32,359 nucleotides of DNA from a virus: IMG/VR virus record IMGVR_UViG_3300032285_003303, positions 1 to 32,359 of that record; one strand, written 5' to 3'. Below, in pieces: positions 491-28,060 of this stretch. The notes under the pieces are model-generated. The model had not been told where the DNA came from and did no database searches. It saw nothing but the letters and a program-made list of their open reading frames with translations. Within the stretch, counting starts at the first letter, position 1, and each line of letters starts with the position of its first letter. The translations under genes and the position numbers were made by a program.

Positions 491-531
491 GGCTGGGTCA
501 TAGACCCCTCTGGCTTGGCTTCTGCCGCCTT

Positions 532-11585: not shown

Positions 11586-11917
11586 GCGCCTTGCCCACCC
11601 CCCCCACCCCTGAAGACGTCCCTGTCGGCCTCCGCGACATCGGCATCGGCATCGCCATCGGTTCGGCCTCCTGGCTGACCCGTTACTTTTGCAGTACGGA
11701 GAAGCAGTCGCTTGGGTACATCGCACGACGGACCGCCACGGCTTCTCTGGCCGCCGTTTTGATCGGGGCCGCGTGCAAGGGGTACTTCAACAGCGAAGGC
11801 ATGGCTTTCGGAGCGGCGGGGGCAGGGGCTTACGCTTCCCCGGAATTAGTCGATTGGGCGCTCAACTGGCTGCGGAAACACGCCGCCAAGGGTAAGGCGC
11901 CGTCTAAAGGCGAGTAA
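11582..11917 (+). CDS. Putative holin (LydA/phage_holin-like)
   Basis: A 111-residue membrane protein starting at GTG 11582, whose GTGA overlaps the upstream TGA. The pattern resembles small holins of the LydA type. There is a first hydrophobic segment (DIGIGIAIGSASWLTRYF), a basic turn (ARRTATAS), a second segment (LAAVLIGAACKGYF), then MAFGAAGAGAYASPELVDWALNWL, and a lysine-rich tail (KHAAKGKAPSKGE). Holins time lysis by opening the inner membrane. It is the last gene of the late block. The assignment rests on topology, tail charge and neighbours. Confidence 0.65.
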   Translation: MSALPTPPTPEDVPVGLRDIGIGIAIGSASWLTRYFCSTEKQSLGYIARRTATASLAAVLIGAACKGYFNSEGMAFGAAGAGAYASPELVDWALNWLRKHAAKGKAPSKGE

Positions 11918-12093
11918 GGCCGCCACGGGCAAGCCAGAGGGGTCAAATGGGCCTTCGGGTGTCGCGGTCTGACTGTCGCGGTGCTAGTATCTTTATGCCG
12001 TGACCGACCCCCGTCCAACAAAGTCGGAAAAACATTCTTGCCTAAATGGAAAAGGTGTTCCACATTGTCGGAGTAATCCAACCAACGATCCAC
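11918..12093 (+). promoter_or_regulatory. Non-coding region heading the early/middle gene block
   Basis: This is the largest gap between genes (176 bases, or 128 if the next gene starts at ATG 12046). It holds two GTCGCGGT octamers (11961-11968 and 11975-11982, 14 bp apart) and a degenerate copy of the late repeat (11969-11985). A TAGTAT that could serve as a -10 box lies at 11985-11990. A CCGAC/GTCGG inverted repeat (12004-12008 and 12023-12027) is followed by five A. No clean sigma-70 -35 box can be set at the right distance. It is the best candidate for the promoter of the 12-23 kb genes. No tRNA-like fold is seen. Confidence 0.45.
11969..11985 (+). repeat. Degenerate copy of the 17-base repeat (copy 6)
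   Basis: CTGACTGTCGCGGTGCT matches the late repeat at 12 of 17 positions, with the core TGACTGyCGCG retained and the second TTGAC lost. It sits at the boundary between the lysis genes and the early/middle block. That position matches the block-heading location of the perfect copies, but chance similarity cannot be excluded. Confidence 0.4.
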
Positions 12094-17524: not shown

Positions 17525-17772
17525 AACCTCTCCCGAAGCAAGTCCCGCCGCCCGCCGGCATCGTCAAGCGGGCCGCCCAAGTCCCGCAGCCGTTCGCCTT
17601 GCTCATCTACCTCGACGCCGTCCCCTATTGCGAGATCGCGGAAAGGACGGAGAAAGCCTTCAGCCTGTCCTTGGCCGATTGGCGCCGCTCGACCCTCCCA
17701 TCACTCCTCCGTTCCGACGTCCGCTACTTCCTCCGCGATAAAACATTCGCCCTCACCGAAGTCCGACCCTAA
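17521..17772 (+). CDS. Unknown basic protein, 83 residues
   Basis: An 83-residue basic protein beginning MKPLPKQVPPPAG. A proline-rich opening is followed by helical segments (PFALLIYLDAVPYCEIAERT and SLADWRRSTLPSLLRSDVRY). It looks like an HTH-type or protein-binding helical bundle, but no assignment is possible. It is coupled to the previous gene by ATGA and followed by a 10-base gap. Confidence 0.55.
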   Translation: MKPLPKQVPPPAGIVKRAAQVPQPFALLIYLDAVPYCEIAERTEKAFSLSLADWRRSTLPSLLRSDVRYFLRDKTFALTEVRP

Positions 17773-22031: not shown

Positions 22032-23366
22032 ATGCCCAACCCAATCCCCGCGACGCCCGACGCGGAAAGACACCTCCTCGGAGTCCTGATCCGAGACGGC
22101 CTTCCCTTCCCGCCCGACTTACTGCCGTCCGACTTTCACGAACCAAGCCATCAGGAAGTGGCCGGAGCATTCATCCGCCTATGGCATGACGGCATCCAGC
22201 CCGACGAACTGACGGTTACCCAACGCCTACGCGAAGCCAAGGCCACGACCGACGCCCACGTCGTCAGCAAGATGACCAGCGATGTCGGCGCCTCGCTCTA
22301 CAACCCCGGATGGGCTGACATCGTCCGCCAGCAATCAGTCCTCCGTCACTTGGCTAGGACGGCCGAGAAGGTCGCCGCCTTGGCGTCCGACCCAGCCTCC
22401 GACCCATCGGCCTTGCTGGCTTACGCGGAAGGGTCGTTCAAGGCCGTGCAAGGAAGGGGAGCCAAGACCGACTCCGAGTCCGCGCAGCTGATGCCGCTTG
22501 AAACCTTGGCCGCCTTCGAGCGTAAGGAAGACCCGAACAACGTCATCGGCAACCGATGGCTCTGCAAAGGCGGTTCTATGCTGCTCGTCTCGCAGTCCGG
22601 CGTCGGCAAGTCGTCATGGTCGCTCCAGATGATGATCTCGCTGGCCGTGAAGCGTCCGTTCTTCGGCATCGAGGCCAAGCGACCGCTCCGCGTCGTCATG
22701 CTCCAAGCCGAGAACGACCTAGGGGACGTGGCCGAAGCATACCAGGACATCGTGGCAGGAATGAACCTCTATCCAGACGAAGCCCGCCTCCTCGCCAAAA
22801 ACCTCCACATCTACCGCGATACCTCATCCGTCGGCCCGGAGTTTCTCAAGCGCATGAGGGAACTGACGGTCAAACACGCCGCTGATGTCTTCCTCTGCGA
22901 CCCGCTTCTCTCATTTTGTGGGATAGAGGTGGCTGACCAACAGCAGATGACGAACTTCCTGCGCCACGGCATCAACCCCATATTGTTCGACACGGGGGTC
23001 ATCGGCGTCTTCGTCCACCACACGACCAAGCCACGATCCGCCAAGGACAAGGAAGGCCAGACGGTGGCCGACCTCGCCTATGCTGGGGCTGGGGCTTCCG
23101 AATTAACTAACTGGGTAAGGGAGTGCGGCTGCTTGCAACGCCAGACGGGGGACGACCCCGTGTTCAAGTTTGCCCTGACCAAACGCCGAGGCCGCTCTGG
23201 CATGAAGGATGAAAACGGCGACTTTAAGTCCGAGATTACCGTGCGCCATTCCAAGACACCCGGCGTCATCCGATGGGAGTACGCCCCGACCGTGACCGAC
23301 CCCGCCCAGCCGAAGGCCGATTCCAGCCCCGCCAAGGGGCCTAGGAAGCCGTTTGACGCCCGATAA
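22032..23366 (+). CDS. Replicative helicase: DnaB-like N-domain plus RepA/RecA-like ATPase
   Basis: A 444-residue protein. Residues about 8-65 resemble the DnaB N-terminal domain (D-A-E-R-H-L-L-G-V-L-I, ending V-T-Q-R-L-R-E). The ATPase core has Walker A S-Q-S-G-V-G-K-S-S at about 187-195, a V-M-L-Q-A-E-N-D strand, and Walker B V-F-L-C-D-P near residue 285. A V-H-H-T-T-K-P near residue 330 is typical of RepA-type hexameric helicases. It should unwind DNA at the replication fork. A basic, proline-rich tail ends the protein. No primase or polymerase gene is present, so host enzymes must be recruited. No Shine-Dalgarno motif (upstream ATCTTCCC). Confidence 0.82.
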   Translation: MPNPIPATPDAERHLLGVLIRDGLPFPPDLLPSDFHEPSHQEVAGAFIRLWHDGIQPDELTVTQRLREAKATTDAHVVSKMTSDVGASLYNPGWADIVRQQSVLRHLARTAEKVAALASDPASDPSALLAYAEGSFKAVQGRGAKTDSESAQLMPLETLAAFERKEDPNNVIGNRWLCKGGSMLLVSQSGVGKSSWSLQMMISLAVKRPFFGIEAKRPLRVVMLQAENDLGDVAEAYQDIVAGMNLYPDEARLLAKNLHIYRDTSSVGPEFLKRMRELTVKHAADVFLCDPLLSFCGIEVADQQQMTNFLRHGINPILFDTGVIGVFVHHTTKPRSAKDKEGQTVADLAYAGAGASELTNWVRECGCLQRQTGDDPVFKFALTKRRGRSGMKDENGDFKSEITVRHSKTPGVIRWEYAPTVTDPAQPKADSSPAKGPRKPFDAR

Positions 23367-23403
23367 GGGTCCTACCAGCCACAACGCCTTCCAGACCCCT
23401 TTT
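23365..23403 (+). terminator. Possible terminator after the helicase
   Basis: Inverted repeat GGGTC (23367-23371) and GACCC (23394-23398), extended by flanking AA and CTT, followed by TTTT at 23400-23403. The 22-base loop is long and the stem short, so this is weaker than the terminator after the capsid gene. Its place between the helicase and a promoter-like region supports it. Confidence 0.4.
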
Positions 23404-23431
23404 CCTACCCCATGCAAAAAACGTTGAGACA

Positions 23432-23459
23432 TTGTAATCCCCTAAAGGGGATTGATAAG
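23432..23459 (+). promoter_or_regulatory. Promoter-like hexamers flanking an 18-bp palindrome
   Basis: TTGTAA (23432-23437) and GATAAG (23454-23459) are separated by 16 bases and each match the sigma-70 consensus at 4 of 6 positions. The spacer and flanks hold the palindrome AATCCCCTAAAGGGGATT (23436-23453), with 8-bp perfect arms around AA. A dimeric repressor or activator binding there would cover the promoter. It would drive the packaging genes from 23525. No second copy of the palindrome was found in the window. Confidence 0.5.
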
Positions 23460-23495
23460 CCTATCCCTCCCTCTTGGGGGGTCGGTCGGCTTATC
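23454..23495 (+). other. Two-tier inverted repeat / leader hairpin
   Basis: Outer arms GATAAGCC (23454-23461) and GGCTTATC (23488-23495) are perfectly complementary. Inside, CCCTCC pairs with GGGGGG (one T-G wobble) around a CTCTT loop. In RNA this makes a long hairpin with an internal loop in the leader of the gene at 23525. As DNA it could be part of an origin or a packaging site. The two-tier symmetry is unlikely to be accidental. Confidence 0.55.
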
Positions 23496-23524
23496 TTCAG
23501 CACGCTATCTTGTCCGAGTAGACT

Positions 23525-23935
23525 ATGCCGCGTAGAAATCCCAAGCGCATAGGCTGGCGACTAGCCGGCAAGTTCAAGGTCCTCCGAAAGTGGAAGCATA
23601 GTTGGGACGTGAATCCTGACGGCATGGAAAGAGCCAGAGCCAAGAATGTTGCCAAAGCCCACGACTACTACCGAGGACTTGCCGAAGGGTTACGCGATCA
23701 CGTCAGTCAGTGGCCTAGCTCGATGACGTCGAAGGAGTTTGTCGGGATGGTCCGGGCCACCGTCCCTCTCCTGGGCAGAGGCAGGACAAGGAAGGGATAC
23801 GATTGGAAGTCATGCCGTAGTCGCCTTGTGAGGCTTGGCTTTTGCACGTTTGACGTGCGGTCCCGATTGTGGACAAACCGTTGCAAGCCATCGGTTGAGA
23901 ACTCTCCAGACTCTTCCACTAATGTCGGAGAGTGA
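23525..23935 (+). CDS. Basic protein heading the packaging block, unknown
   Basis: A 136-residue strongly basic protein (RRNPKRIGWRLAGKFKVLRK at the start). The central part is helical, including an H-D-Y-Y-R-G-L-A-E-G-L-R-D-H-V segment. Further on, S-M-T-S-K-E-F-V-G-M-V and C-R-S-R-L-V-R-L-G-F resemble an HTH unit. The high positive charge suggests nucleic-acid binding. It is the first gene after the palindrome-bearing promoter region, so it may be a regulator of its own operon. The stop overlaps the next gene as GTGA. No family recognised. Confidence 0.6.
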   Translation: MPRRNPKRIGWRLAGKFKVLRKWKHSWDVNPDGMERARAKNVAKAHDYYRGLAEGLRDHVSQWPSSMTSKEFVGMVRATVPLLGRGRTRKGYDWKSCRSRLVRLGFCTFDVRSRLWTNRCKPSVENSPDSSTNVGE

Positions 23936-24687
23936 CAGCCAACAGACAGTCGTCCGTGTCCGCCGAGTACGCCCGGTGGTGGAAGCGATTGTCGCCTGAC
24001 GAACGCAAGGCGCTCATCGAGTCCGGTGCGTTCCGTGCCGATGATCCTGCCGACGCCACGCCGCTGGACTCTCGCTCCAGGATGAACGGTCAGCACTTCG
24101 ACTTCATGCGGGCGGAAGACGAGAAGTCGTATTCAAACCCGACGCGGGAGATGTCGCTGAAGAGCCAGTCCCCTTCCGCAGCTGATGACGTGATGGATGC
24201 CGAGGACATTATGCTGTCAGACCCACGGCTGGCATCGCTTGACCTGGCTGGCTTACGGTTGCGGGCCACGCTTCACTTCCTGCTCGATGGGCTGGATGAG
24301 TCCACCGACCCGGCCATGCGCCTACACGCCGACATCATCCGCATCGTGGTCGGCGAGGGTAAGCCGCCACGGATGACGGCCCTCGCCAAGACGCACAACA
24401 TCAGCAAGGCGGCGGTGTCCTTGCGGTGCCGTAAGTTATTGCGTCGTCTTGGCCTTGCTCCGTCTCGCTTCATGCGACCAGAGGACGAGGTGAACAACAT
24501 GAGGGTCGCCAGCATCATGCGGAATCTGGATGACGCGCCCGCCCCTGCCACCCCCGGTAAGGAATCTCTTGAAAAGCCCAGCAAACCAGCCACGCGGTCG
24601 CGACCTCGTGAAAAAGAGGCGAAAAAACCCCGTTTTTTGAAAGGGTCGGGAAAAGCCGGGCAGGCCCGCCAAAACAAACGCAAGTAA
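23932..24687 (+). CDS. HTH protein next to terminase, candidate transcription regulator
   Basis: A 251-residue protein from GTG 23932. Residues about 142-167 (PPRMTALAKTHNISKAAVSL, then RCRKLLRRLGL) form a helix-turn-helix like sigma-70 region 4 (L-A-x-x-x-x-I-S-x-x-x-V-S). An upstream acidic segment (DDVMDAEDIMLSDPRL) and a lysine/arginine-rich tail flank it. It is the clearest DNA-binding regulator near the structural genes and lies 3 bases before the small terminase. It may bind the packaging site, or act as an activator for the late repeats. Neither is proved by sequence. Confidence 0.6.
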   Translation: MTANRQSSVSAEYARWWKRLSPDERKALIESGAFRADDPADATPLDSRSRMNGQHFDFMRAEDEKSYSNPTREMSLKSQSPSAADDVMDAEDIMLSDPRLASLDLAGLRLRATLHFLLDGLDESTDPAMRLHADIIRIVVGEGKPPRMTALAKTHNISKAAVSLRCRKLLRRLGLAPSRFMRPEDEVNNMRVASIMRNLDDAPAPATPGKESLEKPSKPATRSRPREKEAKKPRFLKGSGKAGQARQNKRK

Positions 24688-24690
24688 CCG

Positions 24691-25350
24691 ATGGCACGAC
24701 TTTCCAACAAACAGATCGCCGAACATTTCGGCTTTACCGCGGCAAGAGCGTCGGCGCTCATCCGCCAGGGGATGCCGACGGACTCCCTCGAAGATGCCGA
24801 CCAATGGCGGCAAGCCAGATTACTGCGGGGGCAACGTGGCGGCGTCGAGCAGCGCGCGGCCATCGTCGTCGATGCGTCCACCGTCAACCCGGACGACGAC
24901 TTCGAGCAAACCGTACAACGTCACCGCGAATTGAAGGAAGCGGCTCGCCAACGCTACATCATCGCCCGCGACACGTCCGACCCGCAAGAGGCTAAAATCT
25001 ACGGGACCTACCAGAACATCCTCAAGACCCTTGTGACCGTTGAACGCGAAGCCTTGGCCCGCCGCGTCGAGGCTAAAGAGCTCATCAAGACGTCCCACGC
25101 CCTGGACAAGTTCGCCAAGATCATGGGCGAGATAAAGGCCGACTTGCTGTCGATGCCTACGGAGATTGCGCCGGAGGCGAACGCCGAGGAGCCACAAGTG
25201 GCGCTCAAGGCCATCGACGACAAGGTCCAGAAGCTTCTGGCTAAATGGGCGACGCTGTCGGAGGCGGCTGGGACTGACGTCGTCGGCGACGGCCCTCGAG
25301 CTACGGCTCCCGACCTTGACGAGTTTGATGGAGTGGGCGAAGATGCCTGA
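24691..25350 (+). CDS. terS: Terminase small subunit
   Basis: A 219-residue protein. Residues 5-28 (SNKQIAEHFGFTAARASALI) form an N-terminal helix-turn-helix of the Nu1 type. A long helical oligomerisation part follows (FEQTVQRHRELKEAARQRYI; ALDKFAKIMGEIKADLL). The tail is acidic (DEFDGVGEDA) and probably contacts the large subunit. It recognises the packaging start on phage DNA. The large subunit is 0.87 kb downstream, with an unrelated enzyme gene in between. The start ATG 24691 follows AAGTAACCG. Confidence 0.72.
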   Translation: MARLSNKQIAEHFGFTAARASALIRQGMPTDSLEDADQWRQARLLRGQRGGVEQRAAIVVDASTVNPDDDFEQTVQRHRELKEAARQRYIIARDTSDPQEAKIYGTYQNILKTLVTVEREALARRVEAKELIKTSHALDKFAKIMGEIKADLLSMPTEIAPEANAEEPQVALKAIDDKVQKLLAKWATLSEAAGTDVVGDGPRATAPDLDEFDGVGEDA

Positions 25351-25352
25351 CC

Positions 25353-26219
25353 ATGTCTTTTTTCGAGCCACCTTCTCCGACGCGATTTAACGTCCTCAAC
25401 CTTGGTGCCGGAGTCCAATCATCTGCCTTGGCCTTGATGGCGGCAAAGGGCGAGATTGGCCCGATGCCAGACTTCGCCGTGTTCGCCGACACGCAAGCCG
25501 AACCGACCAGCGTCTACAAGTGGCTTGATTGGCTTGAGACGCAATTGCCATTCCCCGTGATCCGTGTGACCAAAGGGAACTTGACGGAAGAAATCCTTAA
25601 AGTGCGCGTGAAAGAAAAGTCTATCTATGGGGACAACCTTACCTACTTGCGTTCAAACATTCCTGTCTACGGACTTACGCCTTCGGGAGAAGTGAGAGCC
25701 GCATTAGGTCGCGCTTGCACGGCCGACTTCAAGGTCGGTCCAATACTGAAAGAAATCCGGCAGCGTTGCGGCATCAAACACGGCCAGAAAGAAGTGACAG
25801 TCACTCAATGGCTGGGCATCTATTACGACGAGATGCAGCGCATGAAACTTCCAAGCAATCCTTGGACGCAACATCGCTGGCCTCTTATCGAAAAGCGGAT
25901 GACCCGCGCTCATTGTAAGGACTGGATGGCAAAGAACGGCTATCCTGAGCCGCCCCGTTCAGCCTGTTATTATTGCCCGTTCCACGACGACGAAGAATGG
26001 CGTCGCCTGAAAACGGAAGACCCTGGGCATTTCCAGAAGGCCGTCGAGTTCGACAAGACCTATCGACGACTTCAGAACGAGAACCCCGGAGGTCTTCGCA
26101 TCGAAGTCTATCTGCACAAGTCCTGCAAGCCGCTCGACGAGGTGGACTTCACGGATAAGGACGAACACCAGCTCGGCTTTGATTTCAAGTCCGAGTGCGA
26201 AGGGATGTGCGGACTATGA
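25353..26219 (+). CDS. PAPS-reductase-like (adenine nucleotide alpha-hydrolase fold) protein with cysteine cluster
   Basis: A 288-residue protein of the phosphoadenosine-phosphosulfate reductase / ATP-PPase superfamily. The PP-loop is present as L-G-A-G-V-Q-S-S (residues 17-24). Conserved elements follow: F-A-V-F-A-D-T-Q-A-E-P, a T-K-G-N-L segment and a W-L-G-I-Y-Y-D-E-M-Q-R-M-K motif. Cysteines cluster in the last third: C205-Y-Y-C208-P-F-H, then H-K-S-C-K-P-L and C-E-G-M-C-G-L at the end, suggesting an iron-sulfur site as in the DndC-related branch. Possible roles are sulfur transfer, DNA or tRNA modification, or nucleotide handling. It sits between the terminase genes and overlaps the large subunit start by 4 bases. 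Confidence 0.75.
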   Translation: MSFFEPPSPTRFNVLNLGAGVQSSALALMAAKGEIGPMPDFAVFADTQAEPTSVYKWLDWLETQLPFPVIRVTKGNLTEEILKVRVKEKSIYGDNLTYLRSNIPVYGLTPSGEVRAALGRACTADFKVGPILKEIRQRCGIKHGQKEVTVTQWLGIYYDEMQRMKLPSNPWTQHRWPLIEKRMTRAHCKDWMAKNGYPEPPRSACYYCPFHDDEEWRRLKTEDPGHFQKAVEFDKTYRRLQNENPGGLRIEVYLHKSCKPLDEVDFTDKDEHQLGFDFKSECEGMCGL

Positions 26220-28060
26220 ACGCCGTCGACCATTTCTCGGACACGCTGCGCTCGATGTTGGCTCCTGATCCGCACCGTGACGCGGTGGCGTTTCTTGAAC
26301 ATAACGTCAAACGCATCCCATACTCCCCGAAGGCCGGCCCGTTCCGCATCTCGAACTCACCCTGGCTGAAGGAACCGCTCGAAGCGTTGACCGACCCGAC
26401 GGTGCTTGAGATCGCCGTGCAAGGGGCCGTCCAGATGTCCAAGACGTGGCTCATCGAAGCGGCCTCCGTCATCTTCCCGTGCCTTGCTCCAGGCCCGACG
26501 CTCATCCTCCGCGAAATCGACCGCAACAGCGCCGACTTCCTCCAGACGCGTCTGAAAGTATTGTGGGAAGCGATGCCGGCGATGCAGGCTTTGATCGGCG
26601 AAGAAGGCATCCCGAAAGCCGGAGTCATCCAGTTCCGGGGAAGTTCGTGCTGGGTGCTGGGAGCGAACAACGAAAAGAACCTTCAGTCGCGCTCCATCCG
26701 TTACATCCTCGGCGACGAGATCTGGATGTGGCCGAACGGCAGCATCAAGGATGCGCTGGCCCGCGTCACCGCGTACAAGTGGCAGTCGAAAGTCGTCTTG
26801 GTCAGCCAAGGCGGCGTCGAAGGCGACGACTGGTCATCCTGGTATCATTCCACAGACAAGCGCGTGTGGTCGTTCACTTGCCCGGACTGCGGGACCGTCC
26901 AGCCTTGGGAATGGGAAGGCATCGTGTACCCGCCGGAAGCCAAGAGCGCCAACGGCTGGGACCTGGACATGGTCAAGGCCGGCACGACATACAAGTGCAA
27001 GGGGTGCGATACGCATTTCAAGGACTCCAACAAGGTGCGATCAGACTTAAACAAGACAGGCCGCTACGTATCGACCAACCCGAAGGCGCCAAAGTACCGA
27101 CGCGGCTACCATTACAATTCCCTTTGCGCGCAGTGGGGTTTGAGCTGGGGCGAGCTGGCGGTGGAATGCATCGAAGCGAAGCGGGCCTTCGAAGACCGTT
27201 CCGAAGACTCCGCCCGCCGCGAGTTCATCCAGAAGCGCCTTGCCCAGACTTACCGCGAACAGGCCGACGAAGTGAACGTCGAGAAACACGTCGGCGGCTA
27301 TCTGATGGGGGCGAAGTGGGACGAGGAAGGCGGCTTTGTCCGTGGCAAGCCGACGCCGTTTAGCCAGATCAGCGACGAACAAAAGGCCGACCCTACCTTT
27401 GTGCCTATGCGTTTCATGGGCGTAGACGTGCAGAAACGCGGCTTCTATTGGGTCATCCGAATGTGGTCAGGCGACGGTCGGTCCCGGATGCACAGCTGCG
27501 GCTATTGCTTTGAATGGAAAGAAGTGCTGGAGACTCACAAGGCCGCCGGCGTCCATCCTGCCAATGTCTTCGTGGACAGCGGCGACCAGCAGGACATGGT
27601 CTTGGCCGCTTGTGCTGCCAACGGCTGGGTGGCGACACGCGGTGACCAACGTAACGACTTCCCCTGGAAGATTCGCACACCCGCCGGCATGAAGACGGAA
27701 CTGCGCCCTTACTCCCCGCCCGTCGTCGAGTCGGTCGGCAGCAAGCGAACCAAGCGCTTCTTCTTTTCCAACCTTCGCCTGAAAGACACCCTGTCCACGC
27801 TGATCAAGAAAGGCCGGCACACGAAGGCCGACGACACCCCGTCCGAGTACGTCGCCCAGATGCAGTCGGAGAAGCGAGTCATCACCCCTGGCGGCCGTCC
27901 GTTGTGGGAGCCGGTGGCGCAAGGCAAGGCGAACCACTTCTGGGACTGCGAGGTCATCAACCTCCTTCCCGCCTTGGCTTGGCGACTGACCGGGCGGGCG
28001 GAACAGATGGTCGGAGAAGAAGCCGCGCCGTCGGAGGATGTTGCAAACTCCGACTCTTGA
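26216..28060 (+). CDS. terL: Terminase large subunit, GpA family
   Basis: A 614-residue packaging motor. The ATPase has a variant Walker A V-Q-G-A-V-Q-M-S-K-T-W near residues 67-77 and Walker B R-Y-I-L-G-D-E-I near 162-169. A C-P-D-C-G / C-K-G-C-D zinc ribbon near 222 and 261 is typical of the lambda gpA family. The nuclease part starts at M-G-V-D-V-Q-K-R-G near 401, with an acidic D-S-G-D-Q-Q-D-M-V near 453. It cuts concatemers and pumps DNA into the head. The start ATG 26216 overlaps the upstream stop as ATGA; GTG 26195 is possible but less likely. GpA-type motors mostly use cos cutting. Confidence 0.93.
   Translation: MNAVDHFSDTLRSMLAPDPHRDAVAFLEHNVKRIPYSPKAGPFRISNSPWLKEPLEALTDPTVLEIAVQGAVQMSKTWLIEAASVIFPCLAPGPTLILREIDRNSADFLQTRLKVLWEAMPAMQALIGEEGIPKAGVIQFRGSSCWVLGANNEKNLQSRSIRYILGDEIWMWPNGSIKDALARVTAYKWQSKVVLVSQGGVEGDDWSSWYHSTDKRVWSFTCPDCGTVQPWEWEGIVYPPEAKSANGWDLDMVKAGTTYKCKGCDTHFKDSNKVRSDLNKTGRYVSTNPKAPKYRRGYHYNSLCAQWGLSWGELAVECIEAKRAFEDRSEDSARREFIQKRLAQTYREQADEVNVEKHVGGYLMGAKWDEEGGFVRGKPTPFSQISDEQKADPTFVPMRFMGVDVQKRGFYWVIRMWSGDGRSRMHSCGYCFEWKEVLETHKAAGVHPANVFVDSGDQQDMVLAACAANGWVATRGDQRNDFPWKIRTPAGMKTELRPYSPPVVESVGSKRTKRFFFSNLRLKDTLSTLIKKGRHTKADDTPSEYVAQMQSEKRVITPGGRPLWEPVAQGKANHFWDCEVINLLPALAWRLTGRAEQMVGEEAAPSEDVANSDS

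Follow-up and report, generated by a model that had tools for sequence, protein, structure and literature searches.

A two-hairpin element at the start of the late operon in a group of phages is conserved in its fold rather than in its letters

The virus genome record analyzed here (the window, that is, the whole stretch of 32,359 bases) carries, between a DnaB-type helicase gene and the gene for a small basic protein, two adjoining hairpins that make up a real control site, kept by its folding while the letters are replaced between relatives. This element is previously uncatalogued: the families of Rfam 15 gave no gathering-score match in 10 sources, the best sub-threshold match being to a CRISPR repeat model (E 0.29), and the papers searched contained no description of the two hairpins. 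Examples of phage cis elements whose fold is conserved while the sequence is almost fully replaced are few.

All genes assigned in the window run rightward, in the order terminase (24691 and 26195), portal, protease and capsid, followed, from the left end of the window, by tail genes, lysis genes, recombination and nucleotide genes and the helicase. The features around the element are as follows.

22032–23366, + strand: DnaB-type/RecA-fold helicase (Pfam AAA_25, 1.3e-17; DnaB, 1.4e-6; phrog_19)
23367–23431, + strand: C-rich, G-poor spacer (C 0.39, G 0.16, measured over 75 nt)
23422–23435, + strand: short motif CGTTGAGACATTGT, abutting hairpin 1 on its 5' side
23436–23453, + strand: hairpin 1, AATCCCC-TAAA-GGGGATT, its pairing maintained by compensatory changes (99% of helix 1 cells paired)
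23454–23495, + strand: hairpin 2, with lower stem 23454–23461/23488–23495, internal loops and upper stem 23465–23470/23476–23481
23525–23935, + strand: small basic protein with helical N-terminus and winged helix (open reading frame, homologues, AlphaFold2)
23932–24687, + strand: second protein, with a helix-turn-helix (weak fold match to antiterminator AlpA and sigma region 4)
24556–24567, + strand: GGTAAGGAATCT, a conserved block before cos
24597–24604, no strand assigned: predicted cos overlap GTCGCGAC, from contig ends, inside the 3' end of 23932–24687
24691–25350, + strand: terminase small subunit (phrog_57, 2.1e-14)
26195–28060, + strand: terminase large subunit, lambda GpA type (Pfam GpA_ATPase, 7.3e-32)

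A gene for a PAPS reductase-like protein (25353–26219), of a kind that phage P8625 also has, lies between the two terminase genes.

The element spans 23434–23495. The palindrome reported in the earlier note, AATCCCCTAAAGGGGATT, is present at 23436–23453 with 8-bp arms around AA and, when folded, forms 7 bp closed by a TAAA loop. The nested hairpin follows it directly; its outer arms are GATAAGCC (23454–23461) and GGCTTATC (23488–23495), and CCCTCC (23465–23470) pairs with GGGGGG (23476–23481) inside them. Taken by itself, the sequence of the window is barely beyond chance. Perfect 8-bp inverted repeats with loops of up to 8 number 4 in the window versus 6.1 in shuffles, and the local fold is moderately better than shuffles: both hairpins form in the RNA fold of 23425–23530 (-37.9 kcal/mol, z -2.35, 4 of 200 shuffles equally good), and the DNA fold of the same segment has z -2.07. 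The significance of the element comes from its conservation, with compensatory change, in relatives.

Conservation of the fold among relatives

Relatives were collected from IMG/VR contigs, helicase alignments leading to 78 loci and the product of 23932–24687 to 47. In a helicase relative with 69% identity (L002) and in two further contigs (L014 and L019), hairpin 1 is unchanged and hairpin 2 has matched changes on both arms. Homologues of the 23525–23935 product comprise 65 open reading frames, overlapping contigs included, and 12 further contigs. Wherever the DNA upstream of such a homologue is present, two tandem inverted repeats are found, clear in almost all cases and less so in L032 and L168–L170, and in more than 50 IMG/VR contigs the two tandem hairpins stand 14–75 nt 5' of the start of the homologue.

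Covariation was counted in a structure-fitted alignment of 14 distinct sequences and 22 pairs, in which hairpin 2 corresponds to helices 2–4. Paired cells make up 95.3% of this alignment, double changes occur in 15 of the 22 pairs, and none of 500 shuffles was as good; the covariation score is 0.439, compared with 0.126 in shuffles, and drops below 0.1 on sliding by a single column. Both conservation and compensatory change, by which the earlier note had proposed that its control region be judged, are thus found in relatives. Helix 1, which corresponds to hairpin 1, contains no G-U pair among the 14 sequences and no one-sided changes. A separate group (L108–L126) has a much longer hairpin 1, with 8 doubly changed pairs and, in its 3' strand, two single-base bulges that are conserved; one-sided bulges occur in the hairpin 1 stem of distant lineages. 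Internal loops made of pyrimidines (TT/TC and TC/TC) recur in hairpin 2. The covariance model R1, built on one subgroup, matches the element of the window at 3.3e-7 and other subgroups down to approximately 0.006, and a second model, R2, recovers the held-out L132 and L092. Minus-strand model matches at 426–486 of the window and at 17632 of G015 were rejected as elements, being capsid-gene terminators. Exact matches to the 18-mer in L012, L013, L015–L018, L020 and L021 belong to unrelated contigs and were taken as chance palindromes; the R2 scores of these contigs are biased by the way they were selected.

No relatives were found in public phage records for the helicase, the products of 23525–23935 and 23932–24687 or the intergenic DNA. 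Only the terminase gives distant matches there, P8625 having the best E-value among the matches listed. Since a prophage search of GTDB genomes with the helicase and the 23932–24687 product yielded none, the hosts are inferred only; they are probably verrucomicrobial.

Linkage to the late operon and flanking repeats

The order and orientation of the hairpins are fixed, 5' of the right-end operon, and a 23525–23935 homologue is the first gene after the element in relatives. The helicase lies upstream of the element in most genomes, but other genes separate the two in L088–L091, L093, L096–L098 and L105, where the element is still directly 5' of the 23525–23935 homologue. In G023 (the L175 contig, 36,609 bases), the entire early region is inverted compared with the other genomes examined; although the helicase is there at a distance of 14 kb, the rightward late operon begins with the element in this genome too. 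Because of these cases, the element is seen to be tied to gene 23525–23935 and the late operon, not to the helicase. A C-rich, G-poor stretch comparable to the spacer of the window is present in most, not all, relatives.

The junction 5' of hairpin 1 is (T/C)(T/C)GTAAT-like in several lineages and elsewhere consists of 12-bp direct repeats. These comprise two to four units with an exact period of 12 bp directly 5' of hairpin 1, and the unit sequences are unrelated (CTCAAGGTCCGA, ACAAAACCGACG, GTGAAATCCTTA, GACAATCTAATA, TTGTGACTTTCC and GGYATATTTCC). They are present in at least six lineages (the L025, L069 and L108–L126 groups, L032, L163, L171 and L172); the lineage of the window and several more lack significant direct repeats. 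We considered the repeats as a general late-promoter motif and rejected this, as G001 and G002 have the close pair of repeats nowhere but at the element.

Genomes carry one or two copies. An inverted copy is located at the border of late and early genes in L019, G014 and G025, in the last two besides the + copy, and no leftward gene is evident at any of the three. Both copies of G014 have the 17 bp before hairpin 1 (GGGACATACACCGTAAT) in common while their hairpins differ, and in G025 this is nearly so. Such a common flank next to differing hairpins points to a protein that would recognize the flank and to a fold that would matter by its shape.

Possible functions of the element

The explanation that fits best, and that we put forward tentatively as quite possibly correct, is that the element acts in cis as a folded leader beside DNA that binds protein, and governs access to the late operon in a manner similar to put/nut/Q-type antitermination. 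A phage-specific cis site would open the right-end operon (23525–23935, 23932–24687, cos, terminase and structural genes), and in the nascent transcript the hairpins would form a folded leader, beside DNA to which one or more helix-turn-helix proteins of the phage itself would bind. The hairpins would decide if RNA polymerase or ribosomes enter the operon, as elongation control of the put/nut/Q kind at the early-to-late switch, either by processive antitermination or as its recruitment site; the nearest variant would be autogenous control of gene 23525–23935 through the same leader. This type of control fits best because the element stands at the start of the late operon and combines joined stem-loops with a phage-specific DNA motif, helix-turn-helix genes and terminators in the late region, where strong intrinsic terminators lie at 461–484 of the window (after the capsid gene), 7569 of G002 and 8050 of G005. 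The put RNA of phage HK022 is a cis antiterminator of two stem-loops joined with almost no spacer (PMC9378689), and 21Q uses a sigma-region-4-like fold to bind direct repeats (PMC6606751; see also PMC9371919 on put/nut/Q-type elongation control).

The two proteins encoded next to the element were modeled with AlphaFold2 or compared by fold. The 23525–23935 product is confidently predicted as a helical N-terminus plus a winged helix (pLDDT 90), with weak winged-helix fold matches (Z about 5), and Foldseek found no significant match with this model. The 23932–24687 product contains a helix-turn-helix (model pLDDT 64); by fold it comes closest to the antiterminator AlpA (Z 5.6) and next to sigma region 4 (Z ~4.8), and no sequence match was found in the PDB; as these matches, with Z under 6, are at noise level, they may serve as a lead only.

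Bulges that are asymmetric would suit one folded strand better than an operator in duplex form, and since the element always has the same orientation ahead of a start codon, RNA from the + strand is favored; we consider RNA more likely than single-stranded DNA. The polarity of G-U pairs was not decisive as a test of RNA versus DNA. Such pairs are rare: the minimum-energy folds of 31 elements contain 15, as against several hundred Watson-Crick pairs, and the curated alignment has 13 G-T versus 5 A-C. The two strands are nearly alike in how well they fold, with a slight advantage for the minus strand. Elongation control is opposed by this scarcity of G-U pairs, by the equal or better folding of the opposite strand, by the failure to find a conserved promoter and by the inverted copies that lack an evident leftward gene.

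Among known systems, putL and putR of HK022 are about 60–70 nt long and, like the element, consist of two adjacent interrupted stem-loops with almost no spacer; some relatives of the window have two copies in opposite orientation, a further likeness. The put sites follow a phage promoter, within the transcript whose synthesis they modify, and make RNA polymerase resistant to terminators in cis via the β' zinc-binding domain. The orientation and position of the element fit such a placement, but it has no recognized sequence relation to put, it is at the start of a late rather than an early operon, no promoter was recognized by the scan, and sequence turnover is far greater. Q/AlpA antitermination (the 21Q binding element, lambda qut) resembles the element in having its site near cos, where the late operon begins, and in the direct repeats that several of the lineages here contain; the neighboring helix-turn-helix protein, with its weak AlpA/sigma-region-4-like fold match, may be a further likeness. 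In contrast, the repeats here have a 12-bp period and Q has two 6-bp subsites, no promoter or pause element was found at the element, and the Q system is without the hairpin pair. The element would resemble the known two-hairpin and late-control sites in its working at most by analogy. If it is an antiterminator RNA, the put idea would no longer be confined to lambdoid phages but would include phages whose hosts are poorly studied and probably verrucomicrobial. A broader proposal seems possible but doubtful to us: an undescribed class of dual-hairpin elements, kept by structure alone, with phage-specific protein-binding repeats and sometimes a second, inverted copy, that would modify RNA polymerase and in this way bring about the early-to-late switch in a large group of verrucomicrobial-type phages.

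A replication origin, unlikely in our estimate but the main rival, would have direct repeats bound by the winged-helix protein of 23525–23935 as initiator and hairpins that act in single-stranded DNA for priming or helicase loading. Iteron origins of the plasmid oriV type combine direct repeats with single-strand initiation hairpins, and the element likewise has 12-bp-period repeats directly beside hairpin 1 in the lineages listed above, with helicase and winged-helix genes nearby, the DnaB-type helicase adjoining it in most genomes. The few G-U pairs, a stability without preference for the + strand and the occurrence of one or two copies, the second inverted, also suit an origin. So does Verrucomicrobia phage P8625, similar in gene content and size, in which iteron-like repeats (TATCGGCA) and hairpins occupy the same map position, after the primase/helicase gene and before a small helix-turn-helix gene and the terminase; its repeats, however, are irregularly spaced, and it has neither homologues of the 23525–23935 and 23932–24687 products nor an R2 match. 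Against an origin, significant direct repeats are missing in many lineages including that of the window, no AT-rich unwinding stretch is seen, and the element stays with gene 23525–23935 and not with the helicase. The earlier note had proposed cumulative GC skew as a check, and in 10 of 12 genomes its minimum indeed lies no more than 2.3 kb from the element, which looked convincing at first but was undone by the inverted genome G023: with the early genes inverted, the skew sign follows the coding strand (C>G), so that the minimum tracks early and late gene classes. Should the element be an origin after all, it would give a first handle on the replication of these phages. In P8625 itself (L182), at least eight TATCGGCA-like repeats with hairpins lie at the record ends (32784–32893 and 20–50), unannotated there; they are a candidate origin or control region of a verrucomicrobial isolate phage.

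That palindrome 1 is a double-stranded operator or promoter site, bound by a phage helix-turn-helix protein as repressor or activator, with hairpin 2 incidental or a leader, appears improbable. It would agree with the absence of one-sided changes and of G-U pairs in helix 1 of the 14 sequences and with the shared 17 bp of G014, nearly matched in G025, as expected of a protein-bound DNA motif. The one-sided bulges of distant lineages, however, break the dyad of hairpin 1 and make a plain double-stranded operator doubtful, and hairpin 2 is likewise conserved by compensation. TTGTAA (23432–23437, overlapping the palindrome by two bases) and GATAAG (23454–23459) are indeed 16 bp apart as described, but as sigma-70 hexamers they are not conserved: GATAAG is part of the 5' arm of hairpin 2, both vary with the stems (CGTAAT and GCAATC in L025 and relatives, for example), a scan for a + strand sigma-70-like promoter gave none at the site, and no conserved promoter was found. 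From the earlier proposal of an operator-controlled promoter with a structured leader, what survives is a compact control region with a conserved, compensating hairpin pair before the genes leading to packaging, and the promoter hexamers do not.

A GC-rich hairpin after the helicase stop codon would suit an intrinsic terminator of the early operon, but this function is very improbable: neither the window nor its relatives have a T-run behind hairpin 2, the terminator scan did not call the site, and its placement is set by the downstream gene rather than the upstream one. The possible terminator earlier noted upstream of the element amounts to GGGTC...GACCCCTTTT with a long spacer, and the scan called none there.

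The cos site and other recurring sequences

Independent contigs begin or stop at one place. The eight letters GGCGCGAC stand at both ends of G001; this is also where L028 and L029 stop and L005 begins, while L026 and L036 run through it once. The contig ends of G001, G002, L005 and L029 mark a cos site with an 8-nt overlap, the equivalent of which in the window would be 24597–24604, just before the small terminase gene. A packaging (cos or pac) function of the element, suggested earlier and in keeping with its closeness to the terminase genes, can practically be set aside, as these ends put cos ~1.1 kb downstream. The conserved GGTAAGGAATCT block precedes cos by ~30 bp, and the two together are usable to orient genomes and call complete ones in this phage group. 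The element is small and well delimited, and its covariance models and the cos site can serve as markers for annotating related contigs.

Two further repeats were observed. Five copies of TTGACTGCCGCGTTGAC(T/C)(C/T)A, a repeat of TTGACT with a 12-bp period, lie at or near starts of structural genes in the window (532, 2217, 6470, 28170 and 31344) and are also present in L007 and L008; they are possibly late promoters or a regulator site. A recurring ACCCCTCTGGCTTGCC...GGCCTTTTGACC is located at operon borders in the window (503–531 and 11916–11944), in L019 (240–265) and in L183; it is terminator-like on one strand, and a sequence with a similar start comes after the helicase stop codon in L109–L126.
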